NCBI RefSeq assembly: GCF_004684245.1
Contig: NZ_CP038452.1
Location: 186,001 to 250,000, forward strand
Source: Thermus caldilimi
GTDB taxonomy: Bacteria; Deinococcota; Deinococci; Deinococcales; Thermaceae
Direction: 5' to 3'
Length of the DNA stretch: 64,000 nucleotides
The translations under genes and the position numbers were made by a program. Positions 8,193 to 48,409 of the stretch are shown piece by piece; the stretch's first letter is position 1; each line of letters starts with the position of its first letter. The notes under the pieces were generated by a model that saw nothing but the letters and a program-made list of their open reading frames with translations, was not told where the DNA came from and searched no databases.

Positions 8193-10147
8193 TCGCTCCC
8201 ATGGAGAAGCTGGTCCTGGCCGGGCCCAAGGCCAAGGCCCAGGAGCTTCTCCACAGCCTCCAGCAGGCGGGGGTGGTCCACCTGGAAACCCTCCGGGTGG
8301 AAGAGCTGGCCGAGTATCGGCTTTCCCAGGAAGAGCGAGAGGAACTCAGGCGCTGGGAGGGGGTGGCGGCGGGAGCCGAGCATACCCTCACCCTCTTGGG
8401 CCGGGAGATGGAGCCCGCAAGGCCCTTTCCCGATGGGCCAGAGGCGGCGGAAAAGGCCCTTTCCCCCATCCAGGCCCACGCTGAGGGCCTCGCCCGGCAG
8501 AAGCAGGAACTGGAGGAGGAGCTCTCCCTGGCCCAGGCCTACCTGGAACCCTTGGAGAAGCTTGCCGCCATGGCCCAGGGCCTGGACCGAAGCGCCTTCT
8601 TCCGGGTGGTGCCCTTTTTGATCACGGAAAAGGAGCTTTCCCTGGTGGAGGAGGCCTTGAAAAAGGCCCTGGAGGAGCGGTTCATCCTGGCCAGCCAGCC
8701 CTACTCCAAAGGGGTTGCCGGGCTTCTCGTGGTGCACCGCAAGGACCTCGAGGCGGCCAAGGCTGCCCTCTCCCGGGCCGGGGTGGCGGAGTTGCGCCTC
8801 CCTGGCAACTACGGCGACCTTCCCCTAAGCGAGGCCGCCCGCCGGTTGAAGGAGCGGGCCGAGGCTGCCCCCAAGGAGCTTTCCGAGGTGCGCCAGGCCC
8901 TTTACCGGCTGGCCCAGGAGGCCTCCTCCACCCTGCAAAGCCTCTGGACCCGGGCCAAGGACGAGGCGGCCCGGCTTAAGGCCTTGGAAGAGCTGGCCTC
9001 GGGCCGGTTCGGCTTCGCCCTTTTGGGCTACGTGCCGGTGAAGGCCAAGGGCCGGGTGGAGGAGGCCTTGGCCCGCCACAAGGACCAGGTGATCTACGCC
9101 TTTGAGCCGGTGGACGAGCACCACGAGGCGGATCGAGTACCCGTGGCCCTGGACAATCCTCCTTGGGTCAAGCCCTTTGAGCTTCTGGTGAGCTTCCTCA
9201 ACACCCCCAAGTACGGCTCCCTGGACCCCACCCCGGTGGTGCCCCTCTTCTTCCCCTTCTGGTTCGGCATGATCGTGGGGGACATAGGGTATGCCCTTCT
9301 TTTCCTGCTCCTTGGGCGGTGGCTCTCCGGGTTCGTGAAACGGAATGAGCCTCTGGTCATCGACCTTTTTGCCCTGCGACTCAAGCCCGCCGTCATTGGG
9401 AAGCTGGTCTATATCCTCAACTGGATGGTCTTCTGGACGGTGGTCTGGGGCTTCGTCTACGGGGAGTTCTTCGGCACCTTCCTGGAGCACCTGGGGGTGT
9501 TTGGCACCCCTGAGCACCCGGGTCTCATCCCCATCCTCATTCCCCGCATTGACACCGCCAAGACCGCCAACCTGCTTATCCTCCTTTCCGTGGCCTTCGG
9601 GGTGGTCATGGTCTTCTGGGGCCTGGTCTTGAGGGCCTACCTGGGCCTCAAGCACCGCCACATGGGCCACTTCTGGGAGGGCGTGGGGTACCTGGGGGGC
9701 CTGGTGGGCATCCTGGCCCTGGCGGCCTCTTACCTGGGGAACCTCCAGGCTGGGTGGCTGTCTGGGCTCCTGTACTTGGGCTTTGGCGTGTTCTTGCTTG
9801 CGGTTCTCCTGAGCCGTATGTGGCTCATGATCCCGGAGATCTTCACCCAGGCGGGGCACATCCTCTCCCACATCCGTATCTATGCGGTGGGGGCTGCTGG
9901 GGGTATCCTGGCGGGTCTTCTCACCGATGTGGGCTTCGCCCTGGCGGAGCGGATCGGGCTTCTGGGGGTGTTTTTGGGCATCGCTGTGGCGGGGGTTTTG
10001 CATCTCCTCATCCTGCTCCTCACCACCCTGGGCCACATGCTCCAGCCCATCCGTCTTATCTGGGTGGAGTTCTTCACCAAGTTCGGTTTCTACGAGGAGA
10101 ACGGCAGGCCTTACCGGCCGTTCAAGAGCGTCCGCGAGACGCTTTAG
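8189..10147 (+). CDS. atpI: V/A-type ATP synthase membrane subunit I
   Basis: A 652-residue subunit I (a-subunit homologue). The N-terminal half is soluble with long coiled coils (residues about 80-300) and connects to the peripheral stalks. The C-terminal half holds seven or eight transmembrane segments starting near FFPFWFGMIVGDIGYALLF. The segment ILSHIRIYAVG carries the membrane arginine expected at the interface with the L ring, where it forms the proton half-channels. The start overlaps the end of atpG; atpL follows after 12 bases with a GGAGGG ribosome site. Confidence 0.93.
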   Translation: MIAPMEKLVLAGPKAKAQELLHSLQQAGVVHLETLRVEELAEYRLSQEEREELRRWEGVAAGAEHTLTLLGREMEPARPFPDGPEAAEKALSPIQAHAEGLARQKQELEEELSLAQAYLEPLEKLAAMAQGLDRSAFFRVVPFLITEKELSLVEEALKKALEERFILASQPYSKGVAGLLVVHRKDLEAAKAALSRAGVAELRLPGNYGDLPLSEAARRLKERAEAAPKELSEVRQALYRLAQEASSTLQSLWTRAKDEAARLKALEELASGRFGFALLGYVPVKAKGRVEEALARHKDQVIYAFEPVDEHHEADRVPVALDNPPWVKPFELLVSFLNTPKYGSLDPTPVVPLFFPFWFGMIVGDIGYALLFLLLGRWLSGFVKRNEPLVIDLFALRLKPAVIGKLVYILNWMVFWTVVWGFVYGEFFGTFLEHLGVFGTPEHPGLIPILIPRIDTAKTANLLILLSVAFGVVMVFWGLVLRAYLGLKHRHMGHFWEGVGYLGGLVGILALAASYLGNLQAGWLSGLLYLGFGVFLLAVLLSRMWLMIPEIFTQAGHILSHIRIYAVGAAGGILAGLLTDVGFALAERIGLLGVFLGIAVAGVLHLLILLLTTLGHMLQPIRLIWVEFFTKFGFYEENGRPYRPFKSVRETL

Positions 10148-28861: not shown

Positions 28862-29526
28862 AGGTTCAGGACCAGGGTTTGGCGGAAGAAGCCGGGGACC
28901 TCGAGGGTAAGCTCCAGCCTTCCCGAACCCCGCTCCAGCCCGGGCCGGAAGCCCACCACCTGAAGCCTCCCTTCCCCCCGGGCGGGCAGGTCGGCCTCGA
29001 CCCGGAAGCTCTGGCCCAGGAGGACAAGCCTCCCTTCCACCCGAAGGGGGAGGGGATTGGGGTTTTCCAAAAAGAAGTTCACCCCTGCCCGGCGCACCCT
29101 TGGGGGCTCTAAGGGTAGGGCCACCCGGGCGCGGAAAAAGGTCAGCTCCCGCCCCAGGGTGCGGCCTTCCAGCGCCACCTCCACCCCCTGCGGAGAGAGA
29201 AGGGCTTGGGCGGTGTTCAGGGCGTCTTGCGGGGTAAGCCGCACGAGGAGGGTTTCTTCCCTCCGGCCTGGGGAGAGGGTGAGGTCCAGGGGCAAGAGGA
29301 TCTCCCCCACCCGGAGCCTGGTGCCGAAGGCGGAAAGGGGCAGGGGGAAGGGGTTGGGGTTTTGGAACTCCACCCGCAGGCTCAGGAGGAGGGCCGGGCT
29401 TGGGGAAAGCTCCAGGCCGCGCAGTTCCGCCCCCAAGAAGCGGGCCTCGGGGGCGAGGGTCTGGGGGGCGCAGGCCCCCAGGGCCAGAAGGACCAGGAGG
29501 AGAGCGGTTCTGAAGGACGCCTTCAT
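28858..29526 (-). CDS. Lipoprotein with LEA14/WHy-like domain
   Basis: A 222-residue predicted lipoprotein (lipobox LGAC near residue 17). Two repeats of the water-stress/LEA14 type fold are visible: LRVEFQNPNPFPLPLSAFGT and VNFFLENPNPLPLRVEG, each with the characteristic NPNP(F/L)PL motif. Such domains occur in envelope proteins of many bacteria; the function is not defined. The start ATG overlaps the previous stop as ATGA, placing it at the end of the operon that starts at 32305. Confidence 0.75.
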   Translation of the reverse strand: MKASFRTALLLVLLALGACAPQTLAPEARFLGAELRGLELSPSPALLLSLRVEFQNPNPFPLPLSAFGTRLRVGEILLPLDLTLSPGRREETLLVRLTPQDALNTAQALLSPQGVEVALEGRTLGRELTFFRARVALPLEPPRVRRAGVNFFLENPNPLPLRVEGRLVLLGQSFRVEADLPARGEGRLQVVGFRPGLERGSGRLELTLEVPGFFRQTLVLNL

Positions 29527-30377
29527 AGGATCCACCCTTCTTCTTTCAGGCTTTCTAGCTTCGGCAAAAAGGCTGGCCAAAAGGGGCTTTCCTCAGGGTA
29601 AGGCGGCCGGGGGTAGCCTGCGGGCAAGCCCAGGTGGCGCAGGGCCTGTTTCAGCAGGGGCACCCCGCCCTTGGCGAGGAGGTCCCCCAAGGGGAAAAGG
29701 CGTTTCTGCAGGACCTGGGCCTCCGCAAGCCGTCCCGATCGGAAAGCGTCCAGCAGGGTCCGGTAGGCCCGGGGGGCCAGGTTGGCTGCCGCCAGGATGC
29801 CTCCTTCGGCTCCCAGGGCCAAGGCCCCCAGGAAGGTGGGGGCGTGGCCGGTAAAGACCCGGAAGTCATCCCTCAGATGGGCTTGGTAAAAGGCCAGGCG
29901 GGAAAGGTCACCGCTGGAGTCCTTGATTCCCGTGATCCGGGGATGTTGGGCCAGGGTTGCCACCGCGGAAAGGGGCAGGTCGACCTTGGTGTTCTGGGGC
30001 ACGTGGTAGAGGAAGATGGGCATCCTTTCCGCCAGGGCTTGGTAGTAGGCCACAAGCCCCTCGCCGAGGCTTGCGTGGTAGTAGCGGGGAGGCGTGGCCA
30101 GAAGGGCCATGGCGCCTGCTTCCTGGGCCTCGAGGAGGGCCCCTTCCGCTTGGGGCAGGGTTTCCTCCATGAGGCCCACCAGGAAAGGCTTCCGGGGTTT
30201 TAGGGCCCAAAGCCCCCTGGCCCGTTCCTCAGGGGTCAGGTGAACGCCTTCCCCGTTGGAGCCGTAGATGAGAAGCCCGTCCACTAGGGGTTCTAGGGCT
30301 TCCGCCAGTTCTCGAAAGGCCTCCGTGTCCAGGTGGCCTTTCCGGTCGAAGGGAGTGGGGATGGGTGGAAGGATCAT
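29523..30377 (-). CDS. DapA/NanA-family aldolase
   Basis: A 284-residue class I aldolase of the dihydrodipicolinate synthase family. The Schiff-base lysine is in TGIKDSSGD, the catalytic tyrosine in LYHVPQNT, and the phosphate/carboxylate loop in YGSNGEG. The family includes DapA, N-acetylneuraminate lyase, 4-hydroxy-2-oxoglutarate aldolase and sugar-acid aldolases; nothing here fixes the substrate. No lysine-pathway genes are adjacent; instead it is overlapped by a membrane-protein gene upstream and a lipoprotein gene downstream, both ATGA-coupled, so a catabolic or envelope-sugar role is as likely as DapA. Confidence 0.82.
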   Translation of the reverse strand: MILPPIPTPFDRKGHLDTEAFRELAEALEPLVDGLLIYGSNGEGVHLTPEERARGLWALKPRKPFLVGLMEETLPQAEGALLEAQEAGAMALLATPPRYYHASLGEGLVAYYQALAERMPIFLYHVPQNTKVDLPLSAVATLAQHPRITGIKDSSGDLSRLAFYQAHLRDDFRVFTGHAPTFLGALALGAEGGILAAANLAPRAYRTLLDAFRSGRLAEAQVLQKRLFPLGDLLAKGGVPLLKQALRHLGLPAGYPRPPYPEESPFWPAFLPKLESLKEEGWIL

Positions 30378-32305
30378 ACGGGCCTCCTCAGGCTCAAGAC
30401 TAACACCAGGAGGTGGAACCCATAGGCCAGGATCAGGAGGGTGGGTTTCTGGCTCTCCAGGAAGGCAAGGAGCCCATAGGCGGCCAGGAGGAGGAGGACA
30501 AGGCCCAGGCCCGAGGAGAAGCCCAGGCTTCCCGGTACCAAGAGGCGTACCCCCAGGGCCCAGGAGGGAGGAACCGGGGTCCTGCGCCGGGGCAGGAGGA
30601 AGGTGAGGAGGTGGTAGAGGAGAAGGAGCCAGAAGCCAGCGAAGGCCCAGGGCTTCACCCCTTCCGGAAGGGAGGTGCCTAGGCGCAGGAACTCCCGGAA
30701 GGGGTCCTCCTGGAGGCGCTCTAGCTCCACCTGGAGGAGGGCCAGGTAAAGGGTGCGCAGGCTGGGACCTGGCTCCCTAGCCCCCCAGGGATCCTGCCCC
30801 AGTTGGAGGGCGGTGCGGATGGGTCCCTCGAGGGGAGCCTTACGGTAGGCTTGGGCCAAGGCGGCTTCGTCTCCCCTAAGGGCCAGGGCGAAGGGTAAAG
30901 TGGCTTCCCGCAGGAGGCCTTGGGCCTCCTTGGGGGCTTCCGAAAGGAGGGCGTAGCCCAGAAGGGCCTTGACCTCGGGAGTGGGGGGCAGGGTGCGGAG
31001 CCAGTCCTGGGCTTTTTGCGTACGGAGGGTGCCTTGGTCCAAGGGGGGGGCGAAAAGCTCCTTTCGCACCTGGGCGTCCAGTCCCTGAAGAAGGAAGCCC
31101 AGGCTGAGGGCTAGGAAGAGGGCCAGGGCCAACACCCGTTCCCCCAGGCTGGCGTAGGCCAGGTGAAGGTGCCGAAGGCGCAGGAGGGGGTGCTTCCAGA
31201 ATCCCCCCAGGTAACCGCCGAGGGGCTTGAGGTCCTTGAGCTGGGCGGGCAGGTAGAAGAGGAAAAGGTAGAGCATGAGGGCCAGGTACCCTATGCCTAG
31301 GGTCCCAAGGGCTGGGGGGAGTAGGGTGAGCTGCGGAGGGAGCCAGGTTCTTAGGATCTTTTCTGATTCTTGGAAGGTCAGGGCCTGGGCGGGATGGCCC
31401 TGGGCCTCCAAGTACGTGGCGGTTTCCCTAAAGAAGGCCAAAGAGCCGGGGAAAAGAGGGGTGTATCGGAGAAGGGTCCTGGCCAAAAGGAGGGCCTTTT
31501 CGGGATCCCTCTTCTGGAGGGAGCGGGAGGCTTCCGCCATGCGGGCCACCCCCGGTTGGTCGAAGAAGAGTTCCGGCCTATGGCCCCGGGCCAGGAGGTC
31601 CTGGCCGTAGGCCTCCAGGTCCTCCGGGGTGAGGGTGGCGGGGTCCAGGGTCCAGTAGGCATAGTAGGGCCAGGGCTTCGGCGGACTGAGGGCTTCCAGG
31701 AGGGAGCCCAGGACCTTTAGGTCCTCCGCCTTGCCTTCAAAGGGTACCCGGGGGAAGGGGATAGGCAAGACCCAATCCCCCTCGAGGAGGGCTTCGGGGC
31801 CTGGCCTGAGGGCCAGGATGCGGGCCGGGGCAAAGTGGAAGGAAAAGGTTTTCTCCTTCGCGCTGGTTTCCACCACCAAAAGCCCCTGGGCCACGTACAC
31901 CTTATCCCCTTGGACCAAAGGCCCCAGCCAATCCCCCGGGGGTAAGGGCAAGAGGCCCCATGGGAGCTTGAGCCCTTCCCGGGTTAGCTCAGAGGTGGCG
32001 GGAGCCAGGGCGGTGAAGCGGGCTTCCAAGGCACCGGCGGGCAGGGAAAGGCGGATGCGGTACTCCCCAGGGGCCTTGGGGTGCAACTCCAGCTGGAACC
32101 TTCCCTTCTGGGCCTCCACCTCCAAGGTTTCCTGTCCCTCGGGACCCTCCAGCACCAGGGGAAAGCGCCCCTCGGGCAGCTCCCGCCCCTCCAGGACCAC
32201 GGGCCTCCCCGCCTGGACCTCCTTCGGGACCACCAGGCTTTGGCCTAAAACCGGGAGCCCCAGGGCCAAGAGGAAGCCGATGACCCGGGTCAGGAACGCG
32301 TGCAT
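30374..32305 (-). CDS. Large membrane protein of unknown function, 643 aa
   Basis: Unrecognised. A signal sequence (about residues 1-21) leads into about 300 exported residues with beta-sandwich-like strands (residues 20-110) and a helical TPR-like stretch (PEKALLLARTLLRYTPLFPGS). A first membrane helix lies at about 325-350 (GIGYLALMLYLFLFYLP), a second near 390-410 (VLALALFLALSLGFLLQG), then a second helical solute-exposed region and three C-terminal hydrophobic helices. The layout recalls aerotolerance/BatD-like or TPR-containing anchors, but there is no clear match. Its -10 box is shared with divergent sdaAB. Confidence 0.65.
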   Translation of the reverse strand: MHAFLTRVIGFLLALGLPVLGQSLVVPKEVQAGRPVVLEGRELPEGRFPLVLEGPEGQETLEVEAQKGRFQLELHPKAPGEYRIRLSLPAGALEARFTALAPATSELTREGLKLPWGLLPLPPGDWLGPLVQGDKVYVAQGLLVVETSAKEKTFSFHFAPARILALRPGPEALLEGDWVLPIPFPRVPFEGKAEDLKVLGSLLEALSPPKPWPYYAYWTLDPATLTPEDLEAYGQDLLARGHRPELFFDQPGVARMAEASRSLQKRDPEKALLLARTLLRYTPLFPGSLAFFRETATYLEAQGHPAQALTFQESEKILRTWLPPQLTLLPPALGTLGIGYLALMLYLFLFYLPAQLKDLKPLGGYLGGFWKHPLLRLRHLHLAYASLGERVLALALFLALSLGFLLQGLDAQVRKELFAPPLDQGTLRTQKAQDWLRTLPPTPEVKALLGYALLSEAPKEAQGLLREATLPFALALRGDEAALAQAYRKAPLEGPIRTALQLGQDPWGAREPGPSLRTLYLALLQVELERLQEDPFREFLRLGTSLPEGVKPWAFAGFWLLLLYHLLTFLLPRRRTPVPPSWALGVRLLVPGSLGFSSGLGLVLLLLAAYGLLAFLESQKPTLLILAYGFHLLVLVLSLRRPV

Positions 32306-32322
32306 GGGGTTATTCTACAGGC
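32306..32322. promoter_or_regulatory. Symmetric divergent promoter serving two leaderless genes
   Basis: The 7 bases TATTCTA (32311-32317) read as TATTCT on the plus strand and TAGAAT on the minus strand. Each -10 lies exactly 6 bases before a start codon (ATG 32323 plus; ATG 32305 minus). No convincing -35 box on either side. Confidence 0.6.
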
Positions 32323-32985
32323 ATGGGTCTACTGGACATGATCGGCCCGGTGATGGTGGGGCCTTCCTCCAGCCACACCGCCGGGGCCTGCCGCCTGGCC
32401 CTTCTGGCCCGCCACCTCCTTGGGGAAAAGCCCCGGCGGGTGGAGTTTGGCCTGCACGGCTCCTTCGCCAAGACGGGAAAGGGCCACGGCACCCACCTGG
32501 CCCTGGTGGCGGGGGTTTTGGGCTTTACCCCCGACGACGAGCGGCTTAAGGAAAGCCTTTCCCTGGCGGAGAAAGAAGGCCTCGAGGTGGCCTTTAAGGC
32601 GGTGGAGCTAGGGGATGTGCACCCCAACACCGTGCGCATGGTCCTGGAGGGGGAGAAGGAGCGCATCACCGTGACGGGAAGCTCCCTGGGAGGCGGATTG
32701 GTGCGCATCTTTGACCTGGATGGCTTCGAGGTGCGCATCACCGGAGCCGCCCCCACCCTGGTGATCCGCAACGTGGATACCCCGGGGGTGGTGGCCCGGG
32801 TGGCCCGCATCCTGGCCGATGACGAGGTGAACATCGCCTATCTCACGGTGAGCCGCAAGAAGCGGGGTGGGGAGGCCATGATGAGCCTGGAGGTGGACCG
32901 TCCCCTTCCCGAGGTCCCCTTGAGGTACCTGGAGCACCTCTCCTACATCCTCTGGGTGCGGCAGATCCCCCCGGTCATGGACTAA
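32323..32985 (+). CDS. sdaAB: L-serine dehydratase, beta subunit
   Basis: A 220-residue subunit of the iron-sulfur L-serine deaminase, which converts serine to pyruvate and ammonia. The N-terminal SDH-beta domain starts at once with MIGPVMVGPSSSHTAGA and continues FAKTGKGHGTHLAL; a C-terminal ACT domain (about residues 145-215, VDTPGVVARVARILAD) may bind serine. The 4Fe-4S alpha subunit (sdaAA) is not adjacent and must be elsewhere. The gene appears leaderless. Confidence 0.9.
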   Translation: MGLLDMIGPVMVGPSSSHTAGACRLALLARHLLGEKPRRVEFGLHGSFAKTGKGHGTHLALVAGVLGFTPDDERLKESLSLAEKEGLEVAFKAVELGDVHPNTVRMVLEGEKERITVTGSSLGGGLVRIFDLDGFEVRITGAAPTLVIRNVDTPGVVARVARILADDEVNIAYLTVSRKKRGGEAMMSLEVDRPLPEVPLRYLEHLSYILWVRQIPPVMD

Positions 32986-43536: not shown

Positions 43537-44288
43537 CCCGCCATCACCTCCTCCCCCAGGTAAGCCGCTTGAACCTTTTCGTCCTTGGTAATTTCATCGG
43601 GGGTCCCCTCTGCAAGAACCTCTCCTAGGTGAAGCACGGTGACCCGATCGGCAATACCAAAGACCACGGCCATGTCATGCTCAATGAAGAGGAGGGTGAG
43701 TCCTTCCTCACGGTGAAGGCTTTTAAGCGTTTGTACCGTGCGCCAGGTTTCGGCATCGCTCATCCCCGCTGTAGGTTCGTCGAGGAGAAGAAGTTTAGGA
43801 CGCAAACAAAGAGCCAAGCCAATTTCCACCAGGCGCTGGTCCCCATGGGCTAACTCTCCCACAAGACGGCTGGCCTGTTCTTCCAGACCTAGACGTTCTA
43901 GGAGAGCGGATGCTTCCTCTTCCAGAAAACGGGATTTCCGGGACCAGGGGTAAGAGGAGAGGCTGTGGGCTGCCTCCAAGGCAATGATTAGGTTCTCCCT
44001 TACCATCAAATTGGTAAAGACCTGGGGTACCTGAAAGGTGCGGGAAAGGCCTAAGCGAATTCGTTCCTCAACGGCGATGTGGGTGATTTCCTTGTCCATG
44101 AAGTAAACCCTCCCACTATCAGGCCTTTTGGCCCCGGAGAGCAGGTCGAAGAGCGTTGACTTTCCCGCACCGTTGGGACCAATGATGGCGTGGATGCTGC
44201 CCGCTGCCACTTCCAGTTTCACCCCTGATACTGCTAGTAAGCGGCCAAAGGCCTTGCTTAGACCTTCTGCTCTCAGGATGGGCCTCAC
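43533..44288 (-). CDS. livG: Branched-chain amino acid-type ABC importer ATPase LivG (system 1)
   Basis: A 251-residue ABC ATPase with GPNGAGKST, LGLSRTFQVPQVFTNL, a degenerate signature LAHGDQRLVEIGLAL (AHGDQ instead of LSGGQ, common in LivG) and LLLDEPTAGMSDAE. The start is GTG at 44288 because AGGAGG lies 5 bases upstream; the frame is open to 44378. GTGA overlap with the livM stop. AT-rich for this genome. Confidence 0.9.
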   Translation of the reverse strand: MRPILRAEGLSKAFGRLLAVSGVKLEVAAGSIHAIIGPNGAGKSTLFDLLSGAKRPDSGRVYFMDKEITHIAVEERIRLGLSRTFQVPQVFTNLMVRENLIIALEAAHSLSSYPWSRKSRFLEEEASALLERLGLEEQASRLVGELAHGDQRLVEIGLALCLRPKLLLLDEPTAGMSDAETWRTVQTLKSLHREEGLTLLFIEHDMAVVFGIADRVTVLHLGEVLAEGTPDEITKDEKVQAAYLGEEVMAG

Positions 44289-45214
44289 GTTGACCTCCTC
44301 TTGGTTGCAAGGCCAGCGATCCCACCGGGAAAGAATAGGACGACTAGGATGAAGAGGATTCCGATGAATAGCATCCATTCCTGTGTGTAGGAGCTAAGAA
44401 GTTCCTCAAGGAGCACGTAGAGGGCCGCACCAATTAAGGGGCCGAAAAAGTGCCACCTGCCCCCAAGAAAGGTCATCATTACCAGGGTTCCAGAAGTGGT
44501 CCAATGGAAGAAGCTAGGTTGGGCGAAGTTGATTTGGAGGGCAAGCAGGGCTCCTGCGATACCCACTATGCTTCCTGATATCGTGAATGATATCCAGAGA
44601 TAACGTTCCGGCCTTAGGCCAAGGAATCGCGCACGAAGCGAATTCTCTCTTAGAGCCAAAAAGGAACGACCTAGCGGGGAATGCACTAGCTGCCAAAGCA
44701 AGAAGCTTGATAGGAGGAAGATGGGGAGGACAAAGTAATAGTAGGCCTCGCTGCTGGAGAGATCCAGGGTGAAGCTTGGAAAGTGCAGGGGTTGTCGGGC
44801 AAACCCCCTTAAACCATCATCTCCCCCGGTGAGATCGTTCCATTGAAAAGCTATAAAGTAGAAGAATTGACTAAAAGCGATGGTGAAGGTAGCGAAGTAA
44901 ATCCCCCTTAGCCGAGTGATAAGTAGGCCCATTAGGGCAGCCGCAATACCAGCTAGGAGAAAGCCACAGGTTACGGCTAGCGGCGTGCTCGGGAAAAGAT
45001 GTTTCAGGGTGAGGCCTGCCCCATAAGCTCCAAGGCCTAGGAAGGCGGCGTGCCCGAAGGATAATTGACCAGTATACCCCATGAGGAGATTGAGACCTAT
45101 AGCAGCGAGGCCCCATATGAGGATATAGCTTGCGATGGCCGCGTAACTGCCTATAGCCTGGAGTATCCAGGGTAAGGGAAGGAGTACAGCCAAGAGGATG
45201 AACCAGGTTTTCAT
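44285..45214 (-). CDS. livM: Branched-chain amino acid-type ABC permease LivM (system 1)
   Basis: A 309-residue inner-membrane permease with eight or more hydrophobic helices and the LivM hallmark GYTGQLSFGHAAFLGLGAYGAG, plus the coupling-helix region SPLGRSFLALRENSLRARFLGL that contacts the ATPases. It pairs with LivH to form the channel. The start overlaps the livH stop (ATGA). Noticeably lower GC than flanking genes. Confidence 0.9.
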   Translation of the reverse strand: MKTWFILLAVLLPLPWILQAIGSYAAIASYILIWGLAAIGLNLLMGYTGQLSFGHAAFLGLGAYGAGLTLKHLFPSTPLAVTCGFLLAGIAAALMGLLITRLRGIYFATFTIAFSQFFYFIAFQWNDLTGGDDGLRGFARQPLHFPSFTLDLSSSEAYYYFVLPIFLLSSFLLWQLVHSPLGRSFLALRENSLRARFLGLRPERYLWISFTISGSIVGIAGALLALQINFAQPSFFHWTTSGTLVMMTFLGGRWHFFGPLIGAALYVLLEELLSSYTQEWMLFIGILFILVVLFFPGGIAGLATKRRST

Positions 45215-46083
45215 TCGAAAAACCCCTCCTGTCCAAAAAGCCCTCTAGGACGCAACAAGAGCACGAGAGCTAATATGATGTAGATGGACAGCTCGCTGGC
45301 TAGGGCCAAGAAGTTTCCGGCTAGACCAGTGGCCATGCCCACCAGCAGGCCTCCAAGGTAGCTGCCCCCCAGGCTTCCTACCCCACCCAAAATTAGGGCT
45401 ACGAAGCTAGGCATGAGCAGACTCGTTCCCATGGTGGGCGAAAGGCCCAGCTGGCCAGCGGCCAGAACCCCAGCTAGACCAGCCAAAAAGGCTCCAAGGG
45501 CAAAGGCCAAAGTGTACAGACGTCTTACGTCCGTGCCAAGTGCGTTGAGGATTTCCCGGTCTTGGGCTCCTGCGCGGAGATAAAGACCCAGACGAGTGAA
45601 GCGCAGAAGCAGGTATACTCCTAGCCCAGCTACTAATGCGACGATTAGAACCAAGATCCGATAGCGCGTGAGGAAGAAAAGGCTGCTCCCTGGGAATAAA
45701 GGGCTTCCTAAGCCCTCTGGAATCCGGAAGGGTACCGCTACGGGGCCGAAGAGGACGCGCACCGCTTCCTCGAGAGCCAAGGCTAACCCAAAGGTGAGAA
45801 GAAGGCTCTCTAAGGGGTCGCGGCCGTATAGGGGGCGCAAAATACCCATCTCAAGGATGACCGCTAGGAGGGCAAGGCTGATTGGGGCTAGGAGTAAGGA
45901 CCAGTAGAACCCCACTAGCCCAGAAAGTACATAGCCTATGTAAGCTCCTACTACCAGGAAGGCTCCATGGGCTAGGTTGATGATGCGGGTCAAAGAGAGG
46001 ATTAAGGCCAGGCCTAGGGCTAGGAGGGCATAAAAAGCCCCGCTTACCAGGCCATTGAGAAGTTGTATTAAAAGTAGATCCAT
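45211..46083 (-). CDS. livH: Branched-chain amino acid-type ABC permease LivH (system 1)
   Basis: A permease of about 290 residues: LLNGLVSGAFYALLALGLALILS, INLAHGAFLVVGAYIGY and the coupling segment TRLGLYLRAGAQDREILNALG. ATG at 46083 is preferred because it lies 1 base after the binding-protein stop; TTG at 46098 is in frame but would overlap. No clear ribosome site, so it is probably translated by coupling. Confidence 0.88.
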   Translation of the reverse strand: MDLLLIQLLNGLVSGAFYALLALGLALILSLTRIINLAHGAFLVVGAYIGYVLSGLVGFYWSLLLAPISLALLAVILEMGILRPLYGRDPLESLLLTFGLALALEEAVRVLFGPVAVPFRIPEGLGSPLFPGSSLFFLTRYRILVLIVALVAGLGVYLLLRFTRLGLYLRAGAQDREILNALGTDVRRLYTLAFALGAFLAGLAGVLAAGQLGLSPTMGTSLLMPSFVALILGGVGSLGGSYLGGLLVGMATGLAGNFLALASELSIYIILALVLLLRPRGLFGQEGFFE

Positions 46084-46084
46084 A

Positions 46085-47311
46085 CTAAGGATAGACAATA
46101 CGGCAACCCGTTTCCTGGACAGGGGGTGCAGCCTCTTCTCCTGGCACTACTCGTACCACCTCAAATATGTCATCGGGATCTTGACCTTGACGCACATATC
46201 CCACGAAGACCCCAGTCAGCAGTTGGTGATCCTCTTTTCGGTAGTAGACTCGCCCCGGCTGAAGGGCTATGCTGCGGGGCAACTCCAGGCCCTCCATGGC
46301 CTGAGCTACCTTAATGGCCTCCAGAGTCTTAGCCTTGTTAATGGCTAAGGCTAGGCTCCATATAGCAGCGTATCCGAACCAGCTTCTTGCAGTAGGTACT
46401 TTCCGGTAGCGCTTGCGGTACCGGTCTACGAAGGTTCTGACTTCAGGGACGTTGGGCTGGATCCAGTACCACTCGAAAGTCCACCAGCCTATTCGCGCTT
46501 CTTTAGGCAGGGCCACAATATTCTCCCATTCCTGTAGCCCTCCAGCGACAGCCATCTGTTTGTCCAGGCCGAACTGGGCGATCTGTTTGAGAATCGCTAC
46601 CGCATCATCGCCTGCTTGGAACACGAGAAGAACGTCAGGCTTGGCCCTAGCTGCTTTGAGGAGAACGGCGGAATAGTCTACGGTACCCAAGGGTAACCGA
46701 TCGGCTCCAAGTACCTTGCCACCCAACCGCTCTAACACTTTAGTGAAGCTCTCCTGCAACGACCAGCCGTAGGCGTAGTCGGGAGTGATAATATACCAGT
46801 TTTTCCCAAAGCGTTCGGCCAAAAGCCGACCAATGGCGTTGGCTTCCATGGAGGCACTTGTGGGAATACGAAAGGTGTTCCAGCGGCAGCTTCGGCCTGT
46901 AATGTCGTCAGCGTGTCCTCCAGTAACAATGTGGAGCATCTTATATTCGGCGGCGGTCTGGCTCAGTGCTAGGGACACTCCGCTGGATACTTCTCCCAAG
47001 GAGAACTGGATTCTGTCCCGCTCTACCAGCTTTCTTAGCTTCTGTACCCCTACGTCGGTTTTGGCAGCCGAATCTTCGGCCAAGAGCTCTAAGGGCCTAC
47101 CTAGGACCCCACCCCTCACGTTAACGTCATCTACCGCCATGCGGGCCCCCTCAAGTTCATTCCGACCCAAGGCGGCGTACACGCCAGAAAAGGGATCGAC
47201 AAGGCCGATGCGAATAGCTTCCCGTCCTTGTCCTTGGCTATTAAAGGTTAAGAAGGCGGAACCTAAACCTAACTTCAGAACCCCTCTACGCGTAAGCTTG
47301 TACTTCAACAT
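46085..47311 (-). CDS. Periplasmic ligand-binding protein, LivK/branched-chain type (system 1)
   Basis: A 408-residue type I periplasmic binding protein. The N-terminus KYKLTRRGVLKLGLGSAFL resembles a Tat signal (RR before a hydrophobic stretch). The mature part shows RIGLVDPFSGVYAALGRNELEGARMAVDDVN and DAVAILKQIAQFGLDKQMAV. Ligands of this family range from branched-chain amino acids to amides, urea and aromatic or short carboxylates; the sequence does not decide. AGGAGG lies 7 bases before the ATG. Part of operon 1, with atypical AT-rich composition. Confidence 0.85.
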   Translation of the reverse strand: MLKYKLTRRGVLKLGLGSAFLTFNSQGQGREAIRIGLVDPFSGVYAALGRNELEGARMAVDDVNVRGGVLGRPLELLAEDSAAKTDVGVQKLRKLVERDRIQFSLGEVSSGVSLALSQTAAEYKMLHIVTGGHADDITGRSCRWNTFRIPTSASMEANAIGRLLAERFGKNWYIITPDYAYGWSLQESFTKVLERLGGKVLGADRLPLGTVDYSAVLLKAARAKPDVLLVFQAGDDAVAILKQIAQFGLDKQMAVAGGLQEWENIVALPKEARIGWWTFEWYWIQPNVPEVRTFVDRYRKRYRKVPTARSWFGYAAIWSLALAINKAKTLEAIKVAQAMEGLELPRSIALQPGRVYYRKEDHQLLTGVFVGYVRQGQDPDDIFEVVRVVPGEEAAPPVQETGCRIVYP

Positions 47312-47314
47312 ACT

Positions 47315-48409
47315 TTAACCTCCTGTTATCACCACCGCCCGGCCCAGGATCGCCCCTTTGTTCAGACGTTGGTAGGCCAGGTCGGCTTCTTCCAAGGAGA
47401 AGCGATCGGTCACCTCTGCACCCGCCTTTACAACCCCGGTCTGCGCTAACCGGAGAAGGGTGGGCATATCCCTACGGGGTTTGGCCCCGTAGGAACCCAG
47501 GATCCTGAGCTTGCGCCGGACCAGGCGGGTGATTTCTACCCCAGCCTCGACGCCTTGAGGGGCGATGCCCACGGGTACCATCCTTCCCCCATCCCGGAGG
47601 AGGCTTAGGGCCAAACGGAAGGTTTCCGGTCTCCCTAGGGCCTCGAAGGCTACGTCCACTCCTCGCCCGTCCGTCAGGTCTTGAATGGCTTGAGGGGCTT
47701 CCGCTGGGACGAAGGCGTGGGTAGCGCCAAGGGCCATGGCCTTACTCAGTTTTTCGGGACGCAGGTCAATCGCCACCACTGGATAAGCGCCAAACGCCCG
47801 GGCAATCTGGACGATTCCTAGACCCACTCCACCGGTAGCTACCACAGCCACCGACTCCCCTCCCTCGAGGCCAGCGGTCTTCACCGCACCGTAAGCGGTG
47901 AAAAGGGCGCACCCTAGAATGGCTGCTGCCTCAAGGGTGATCCCTTCAGGCAGGGGAAAAACATCCGTGGCCGGAACCACCGCATACTCTGCCAAGCCCC
48001 CCATGGAGTACATCCATAGGGGACTTCCATCCTTACGGAAAAGTCGAGTGGTGCCGTCGTATAGAACCCCTTTCAGGCGGTTATAGCTGAAGAAGCGTTC
48101 GCATAGGTCTTCTTCTCCTCTAAGGCAGTAGTAGCACCGCCCGCAGGGCATGATGAAGCTGGCCACCACCCTCTCGCCTACCCTCAGACCTTCAACCCCT
48201 GGACCCAAGGCATCCACGGTGCCCGAGATCTCGTGCCCTAGCACGCAAGGGGTGGGGAAGGCCACCTCTCCTTTAATCACATGGAGATCTGTATGGCACA
48301 CTCCACAAGCCGCGACCCGGACCAGCACCTCCCCGACTTTAGGTTCCGGAACGGGTACCTCCTCTACCCTTAAGGGTTCCCCCACCCGCTCTAAAACCGC
48401 AGCCCGCAT
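47315..48409 (-). CDS. Zinc-dependent alcohol dehydrogenase
   Basis: A 364-residue medium-chain dehydrogenase. Catalytic zinc ligands CGVCHTDLH and LGHEISG, structural zinc cysteines in PCGRCYYCLRGEEDLC, and the Rossmann motif VVATGGVGLGIVQIA. Substrate unknown; in this operon it may make the aldehyde used by the adjacent MmsA-type dehydrogenase. ATG 48409 is preferred (TGATG overlap with the mmsA stop, GGAAAGG upstream); a GTG 6 bases earlier is also in frame. Confidence 0.88.
   Translation of the reverse strand: MRAAVLERVGEPLRVEEVPVPEPKVGEVLVRVAACGVCHTDLHVIKGEVAFPTPCVLGHEISGTVDALGPGVEGLRVGERVVASFIMPCGRCYYCLRGEEDLCERFFSYNRLKGVLYDGTTRLFRKDGSPLWMYSMGGLAEYAVVPATDVFPLPEGITLEAAAILGCALFTAYGAVKTAGLEGGESVAVVATGGVGLGIVQIARAFGAYPVVAIDLRPEKLSKAMALGATHAFVPAEAPQAIQDLTDGRGVDVAFEALGRPETFRLALSLLRDGGRMVPVGIAPQGVEAGVEITRLVRRKLRILGSYGAKPRRDMPTLLRLAQTGVVKAGAEVTDRFSLEEADLAYQRLNKGAILGRAVVITGG

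Follow-up and report, generated by a model that had tools for sequence, protein, structure and literature searches.

The window, the whole stretch of 64,000 nucleotides of Thermus caldilimi DNA that was analysed, contains a divergent gene pair whose ATG codons are separated by only 17 bp. The gene on the plus strand (positions 32323–32985, 220 codons) is sdaAB, encoding the beta subunit of an iron-sulfur-dependent L-serine ammonia-lyase (TIGR00719, E 7.9e-65); its best named relatives, in T. tenuipuniceus and T. scotoductus, showed 100% protein identity. The gene on the minus strand, here called the left gene, is a 643-aa ORF (positions 30374–32305). At E 0.001 it matched nothing in Pfam or NCBIfam, and tblastn found matches to it in 26 of 27 Thermus genomes, that of T. 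caldilimi included. Both genes are therefore real ORFs, sdaAB by its TIGR00719 match and the left gene by its tblastn matches across the genus. By our own reading, the N-terminus of the left protein looks like a signal peptide. A DHDPS-family ORF on the same strand (positions 29523–30377) shares 4 bases with the end of the left gene, and the two probably form one transcription unit. Elsewhere in the window, the segment from 44001 to 48000 had a G+C content of 0.555, compared with 0.62–0.69 in the remaining 4-kb segments, and is possibly foreign.

The arrangement of the junction was read directly from the sequence. Positions 32303–32325 consist of CAT (the complement of the left ATG), the gap GGGGTTATTCTACAGGC (32306–32322) and the ATG of sdaAB, and these 17 bp are the entire non-coding part separating the two start codons. 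At the center of the gap, TATTCTA (32311–32317; TAGAATA on the minus strand) is flanked by GGGGT on the left and CAGGC on the right. The predicted -10 hexamer of sdaAB is TATTCT (32311–32316, plus strand) and that of the left gene is TAGAAT (32317–32312, minus strand); they overlap in five of the seven positions, so that one element can be read on both strands. The initial annotation placed this element exactly 6 bases from both start codons, which is correct for the hexamers, whereas the 7-mer itself lies 5 bases from each ATG. When the A of each ATG is taken as +1, both hexamers occupy positions -12 to -7. Neither start codon can be moved outward. On the minus strand, an in-frame stop, the TAG inside the box, precedes the left ATG by 4 codons, and on the plus strand there is no ATG, GTG or TTG upstream of the sdaAB ATG as far as the TGA at 32281, indicating that both starts are the most upstream possible. 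In the 64-kb window, TANNNTA occurs 23 times and TATTCTA/TAGAATA once.

We then considered the signals expected around a start codon. A scan of positions 32100–32550 for consensus -35/-10 pairs returned none, a result that says little because the expectation in shuffled sequences was also 0.0. A conserved -35 or an extended -10 element was rejected, the scan being empty and columns -36 to -29 being variable among 26 rows. In the sdaAB direction there is no T at -15, as an extended -10 would have, and a G at -14 is conserved in 24 of the 26 rows. TATTCT agrees with TATAAT at only four of six bases. The genome sample comprised 464 kb (20 stretches plus the window), in which a home-made gene caller identified 426 genes; 414 of these were tested, with 885 candidate starts. 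TANNNT preceded a candidate start by 6 nt in 57 of the 414 genes and by 7 nt in 33, compared with a mean of 7.5 for spacings of 10–29 nt. The boxes at 6–7 nt were followed by A in 26 of 90 cases, and all TANNNT in the sample in 428 of 2766.

Pairing with the anti-Shine-Dalgarno (anti-SD) sequence was -0.1 kcal/mol for the left gene, which has no SD match, and a weak -5.9 kcal/mol for sdaAB. Our first comparison was uneven, setting boxed starts against the best candidate start of the other genes; when repeated on equal terms, with the best candidate start in both groups, the medians were -6.1 for boxed genes (n = 90) and -10.0 for unboxed genes (n = 324), and the boxed genes thus paired less well. 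The sdaAB value is better than the median of the boxed starts themselves (-4.7); the fraction reaching it was 36% among boxed starts and 84% among unboxed genes. The SD test therefore favours a leaderless reading only mildly for sdaAB, and clearly for the left gene. The enrichment of TANNNT and the SD results in this genome fit the published work on leaderless genes in Deinococcus-Thermus. According to excerpts of that work, a -10 motif is associated with about 30% of ORFs in this phylum on average, lies mostly 6–7 bp before the ORF and acts as a -10 in D. radiodurans, and is followed by a rise in RNA in T. thermophilus (PMC12340547), and leaderless genes account for more than 20% of genes in the phylum (PMC3160421, likewise in excerpt).

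The junction was read in all 27 Thermus genomes, that of T. caldilimi included. All 26 genomes retaining the left gene had a gap of 17 bp and the box TATTCTA. The sole exception, G013, lacks the left gene and carries TATGCTA; its place is taken by a gene of the galactokinase family, with GalKase_gal_bdg and GHMP kinase domains, oriented as sdaAB. In a genome of another genus of the same family (G071), the gap of 17 bp and TATTCTA were again found, with a left protein of 56% identity. TATTCTA is thus common to all 27 genomes in which 17 bp separate the left gene from sdaAB (26 Thermus and G071), and the left hexamer lies 6 nt from its ATG in each. Because the Thermus genomes are related, this agreement does not amount to 27 independent observations, and 11 named Thermus loci (L150–L159 and L165), all with TATTCTA, overlap the main genome set and add no extra evidence. 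Column by column, in the 25 genomes left after removal of G013 and of G020, which is fragmentary, all seven box columns were invariant, and 18 of 91 four-fold sites in sdaAB were invariant in the same set. Gap columns -15, -14, -13, -5, -4, -3, -2 and -1 varied, and columns -17 and -16 did not. One sdaAB match (L021, in G015) was listed with one internal TAG stop. The genera g2–g4 of the same family (G049–G070, 22 genomes) were without a close sdaAB, each yielding a single remote match (best E 2.2e-15) that is probably phosphoglycerate dehydrogenase.

A different layout of the same gene pair was found in a sister family, f4, where a close sdaAB was present in 10 genomes and 8 loci were compared. 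A homologue of the left gene lay upstream of sdaAB at all eight loci in the same divergent orientation, with gaps of 41–73 bp and two separate boxes. The sdaAB box was TANNNT, 6 nt before the ATG, in 8 of 8 loci. The left box, always 6 nt before the ATG, was TAAAAT at one locus and GAGAAT, AAGAAT, CAGAAT or CAAAAT at the other seven; where several left starts were possible, we took the one with a signal-peptide-like start. At 11 loci of family f5, the left gene gave no match within the stretch of DNA compared at each.

These loci bear on the alternative that only sdaAB uses the box, with the left gene read from a promoter farther upstream, inside sdaAB, and TAGAAT a by-product of symmetry. In family f4 it is indeed sdaAB alone that keeps the full TANNNT (8/8), the left hexamer being without its first T in seven of eight loci, and in the genome sample TANNNT is followed by A anyway in the 428 of 2766 cases given above. 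The left hexamer of family f4 nevertheless keeps the form NAGAAT or NAAAAT at the same 6 nt in 8 of 8 loci, start codons being of our choosing, and its distance is likewise 6 nt in all 27 genomes with the 17-bp arrangement. Furthermore, the left ATG cannot shift upstream, and the left gene has no SD (-0.1 kcal/mol). We consider use of the box by sdaAB alone unlikely.

The same 7-mer was found in a second divergon, between a His_Phos gene and a kinase gene, with TAGAATA on the kinase strand. This junction was readable in 24 of the 27 genomes; in G013, G016 and G020 it was not found by the pattern. Among the 22 genomes with the His_Phos partner, the box was TAGAATA in 21 and TAAAATA in one, and the gap was 17 bp in 19 and 18 bp in three. 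In the other two genomes, a different gene stands in the place of His_Phos and the box is AAGAATA. Together with G013 at sdaAB, the box was therefore changed in all three genomes in which a partner was lost, a small number of which two look closely related. The kinase starts with GTG, and so a T at -18 of the opposite promoter, discussed below, is supplied on one side only; the same applies to G009, in which the start codon of sdaAB is GTG. The His_Phos ORF itself (L036, 1521–1919, plus strand) has 133 codons in this genome, 124 in L067, where it lies near a contig end, and 212–227 in the other 20 genomes, and given these lengths it may be truncated here.

The second divergon also helps to judge whether the box is kept as a protein-binding site, an operator, with both genes transcribed from upstream promoters that give leadered mRNAs. 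A conserved near-palindrome between divergent genes is usually a regulator site, and the TTC core of this one is invariant as well. Seven base pairs, however, are short for a dimer operator, the identical 7-mer also stands between the unrelated His_Phos and kinase genes, and the left gene lacks an SD. An operator therefore seems quite improbable to us.

To see how common such boxes are, we searched the genome, a single contig of 2,447,659 bp. The exact pattern CAY-N5-TANNNTA-N5-RTG occurred at six sites, compared with none for the reversed control. Coding-like ORFs, defined by our own filter (at least 90 codons, third-position GC above 0.72 and second-position GC below 0.62), lay on both sides at two of the six sites and on one side only at four, so the exact pattern overstates the case for paired genes, which counts against the model. 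When 4–7 bases were allowed on either side, there were 35 matches compared with 10 for the control. All 35 were examined; they represented 33 distinct TANNNTA elements, 10 of which were flanked by coding-like ORFs on both sides. The scrambled motif ATNNNAT gave 16 matches, and one was two-sided among the 15 loci (14 distinct elements) examined. The 17-bp spacer, described in the initial annotation as an extreme case, is thus not alone, since by our filter 10 divergent pairs of the genome have a common TANNNTA. By Pfam or NCBIfam matches, these are sdaAB and the 643-aa ORF; His_Phos_1 and DAGK_cat-YegS_C; DUF554 and Methyltransf_30; HSP20 and IPP transferase; metallophosphoesterase and RecX; phosphoglucose isomerase domains and an ORF with no match; HEPN and a tRNA_SAD-type protein; HD and YgbB; a DnaX-like protein and an ORF with no match; and formyl transferase with ACT and an RraA-like protein. 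In the dnaX-like pair (G000:C1:1876359-1876384, L105), whose partner ORF is the one without a Pfam match, the box is TATACTA, and GTG is the start codon of both genes, placed 6 and 7 bases from the 7-mer. One of the ten elements (L104) can be read as two overlapping hexamers.

A chance TANNNTA in a short gap, retained because the flanking starts leave little room for change, is very improbable: the one-sided ORFs at four of the six exact sites would suit it, but the box is invariant in the same 25 genomes in which eight other gap columns vary, and at the second divergon the 7-mer recurs in 21 of the 22 genomes read that retain the partner.

The genome sample contained 54 divergent pairs, in a tally that preferred a boxed start where one was present and so leans towards such pairs. 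Eleven pairs had a box 6–7 nt before both starts, and in four of the 11 this was one common TANNNTA. The shortest divergent gaps among the 54 pairs were 16, 17 and 19 bp, and all three had a common TANNNTA. A further divergent pair (L142, about 8424–8461) has a 22-bp gap with two overlapping hexamers (TAGTCTATACT) and a start distance of 23 bp, which is another common start distance of bidirectional promoters (PMC12825309, excerpt).

Across the order, counts of the exact pattern against the reversed control, summed by us and including one-sided sites, showed enrichment in the 27 Thermus genomes (158 vs 4) and in the 14 of family f4 (24 vs 5). The counts were 4 vs 0 for g5 (one genome), 6 vs 0 for g2 (two) and 3 vs 2 for g3 (two), and no enrichment was seen in g4 (21 vs 20 in 18), f2 (6 vs 5 in four), f3 (19 vs 28 in four) or f5 (61 vs 61 in 39). 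We did not accept 158 vs 4 as the number of divergons, since the figure is raised by one-sided leaderless genes that happen to have a CAY nearby, and relied on the two-sided ORF count instead. We make no claim of a class of common-box divergons for the order as a whole.

Bidirectional promoters were reportedly described in E. coli and other prokaryotes by Warman et al. in 2021 (Nat Microbiol). At the sdaAB locus, the 17-bp gap is very likely a minimal bidirectional promoter for two leaderless genes, with start sites predicted from the sequence. Because TANNNTA reads TANNNT on both strands, the housekeeping sigma factor would recognise the box in either direction and RNA polymerase would bind in either orientation, only one polymerase being bound at a time. 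In each orientation, transcription would begin 7 nt past the hexamer, on the A of the start codon, and yield mRNAs without a leader. The predicted start sites, 32323 (plus strand) for sdaAB and 32305 (minus strand) for the left gene, are exactly 18 bp apart. The 17-bp spacer is therefore more than small, since it gives the start-site distance that is the published optimum; according to excerpts on bidirectional promoters in E. coli and Salmonella, divergent start sites most often lie 18 bp apart, a spacing at which the -7T and -11A of either promoter pair reciprocally with the -11A and -7T of its counterpart, while the initiating A gives a T at -18 of the other promoter (PMC12825309, PMC10268837). 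In the gap, position 32316 is the -7 of sdaAB and the -11 of the left gene, and position 32312 is the -11 of sdaAB and the -7 of the left gene, in agreement with the reciprocal -7T/-11A rule. The role of a T at -18 was described by Middlemiss et al. 2023 (PMC10268837, excerpt). If the initiating A is the A of the start codon, each ATG doubles as the -18T of the other promoter: the -18T of the sdaAB promoter would be position 32305 on the plus strand, the complement of the A in the left ATG, and that of the left promoter position 32323 on the minus strand, the complement of the A in the sdaAB ATG.

We infer promoter activity, both start sites and the mutual exclusion of the two directions. Excerpts of the published work state that two polymerases are unable to bind a bidirectional promoter simultaneously, and that five E. 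coli promoters, when tested, had too little basal activity for the two directions to compete (PMC12825309, PMC10268837). The initial suggestion that one 7-bp element acts as the -10 of two leaderless genes is supported at the sequence level by the spacing, the conservation of box and gap, the lack of a consensus -35 and of a strong SD, and the enrichment of TANNNT 6–7 nt before starts. A point against the bidirectional promoter is that G013 retains a TANNNTA even though the partner gene is gone.

A broader reading, which we put forward tentatively and regard as somewhat doubtful, is that Thermus has a genome-wide set of minimal divergons in which the 7-bp box and two start codons would be the whole signal, each ATG marking where both transcription and translation begin and also providing the -18T for the opposite promoter. 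The central TTC would be frozen by having to work as a graded -10 core in both directions, and exclusive binding would couple serine breakdown to an operon for a membrane or envelope protein. If the two genes at the sdaAB locus are indeed expressed from the one box, the gap would come close to the minimum signal with which two bacterial genes can be expressed, sparing any leader, SD or separate promoter, and it would fit the shortest divergent gaps of the sample (16, 17 and 19 bp among 54 pairs). It would also provide a natural setting for the competition between directions that has been studied on E. coli promoters (PMC12825309, excerpt), with the same pair under separate boxes in family f4 and the genomes that have lost one partner as natural comparisons.

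The locus can be compared with two known systems. With the -10 motif adjacent to ORFs in Deinococcus-Thermus, as described in excerpts of PMC12340547 and PMC3160421, it shares TANNNT 6–7 nt before the start, the lack of a strong SD and the lack of a consensus -35; that literature, however, proceeds gene by gene, whereas here one box would serve two genes. A term search found no mention of divergent or bidirectional arrangements in the main text of PMC12340547 or in PMC3160421, nor, in the former, of palindromic or symmetric elements, of TANNNTA or of the opposite strand. A -10 common to two leaderless genes appeared in none of the titles and abstract openings searched, which is weak evidence of absence because subscription literature was thinly covered. 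With the bidirectional promoters of E. coli and other prokaryotes (Warman et al. 2026, PMC12825309; PMC10268837; both in excerpt), the locus shares a near-symmetric -10 for both strands, the 18-bp distance (predicted here), the -7T/-11A relation, a -18T on both sides and an expected steric exclusion. Unlike in those promoters, both RNAs are predicted to be leaderless, so that just 17 bp lie between the genes, and +1 and -18 of both promoters would be occupied by the start codons themselves. Known principles very probably explain the arrangement, and what would be unusual is its compactness and the doubling of each start-codon A as the opposite -18T.
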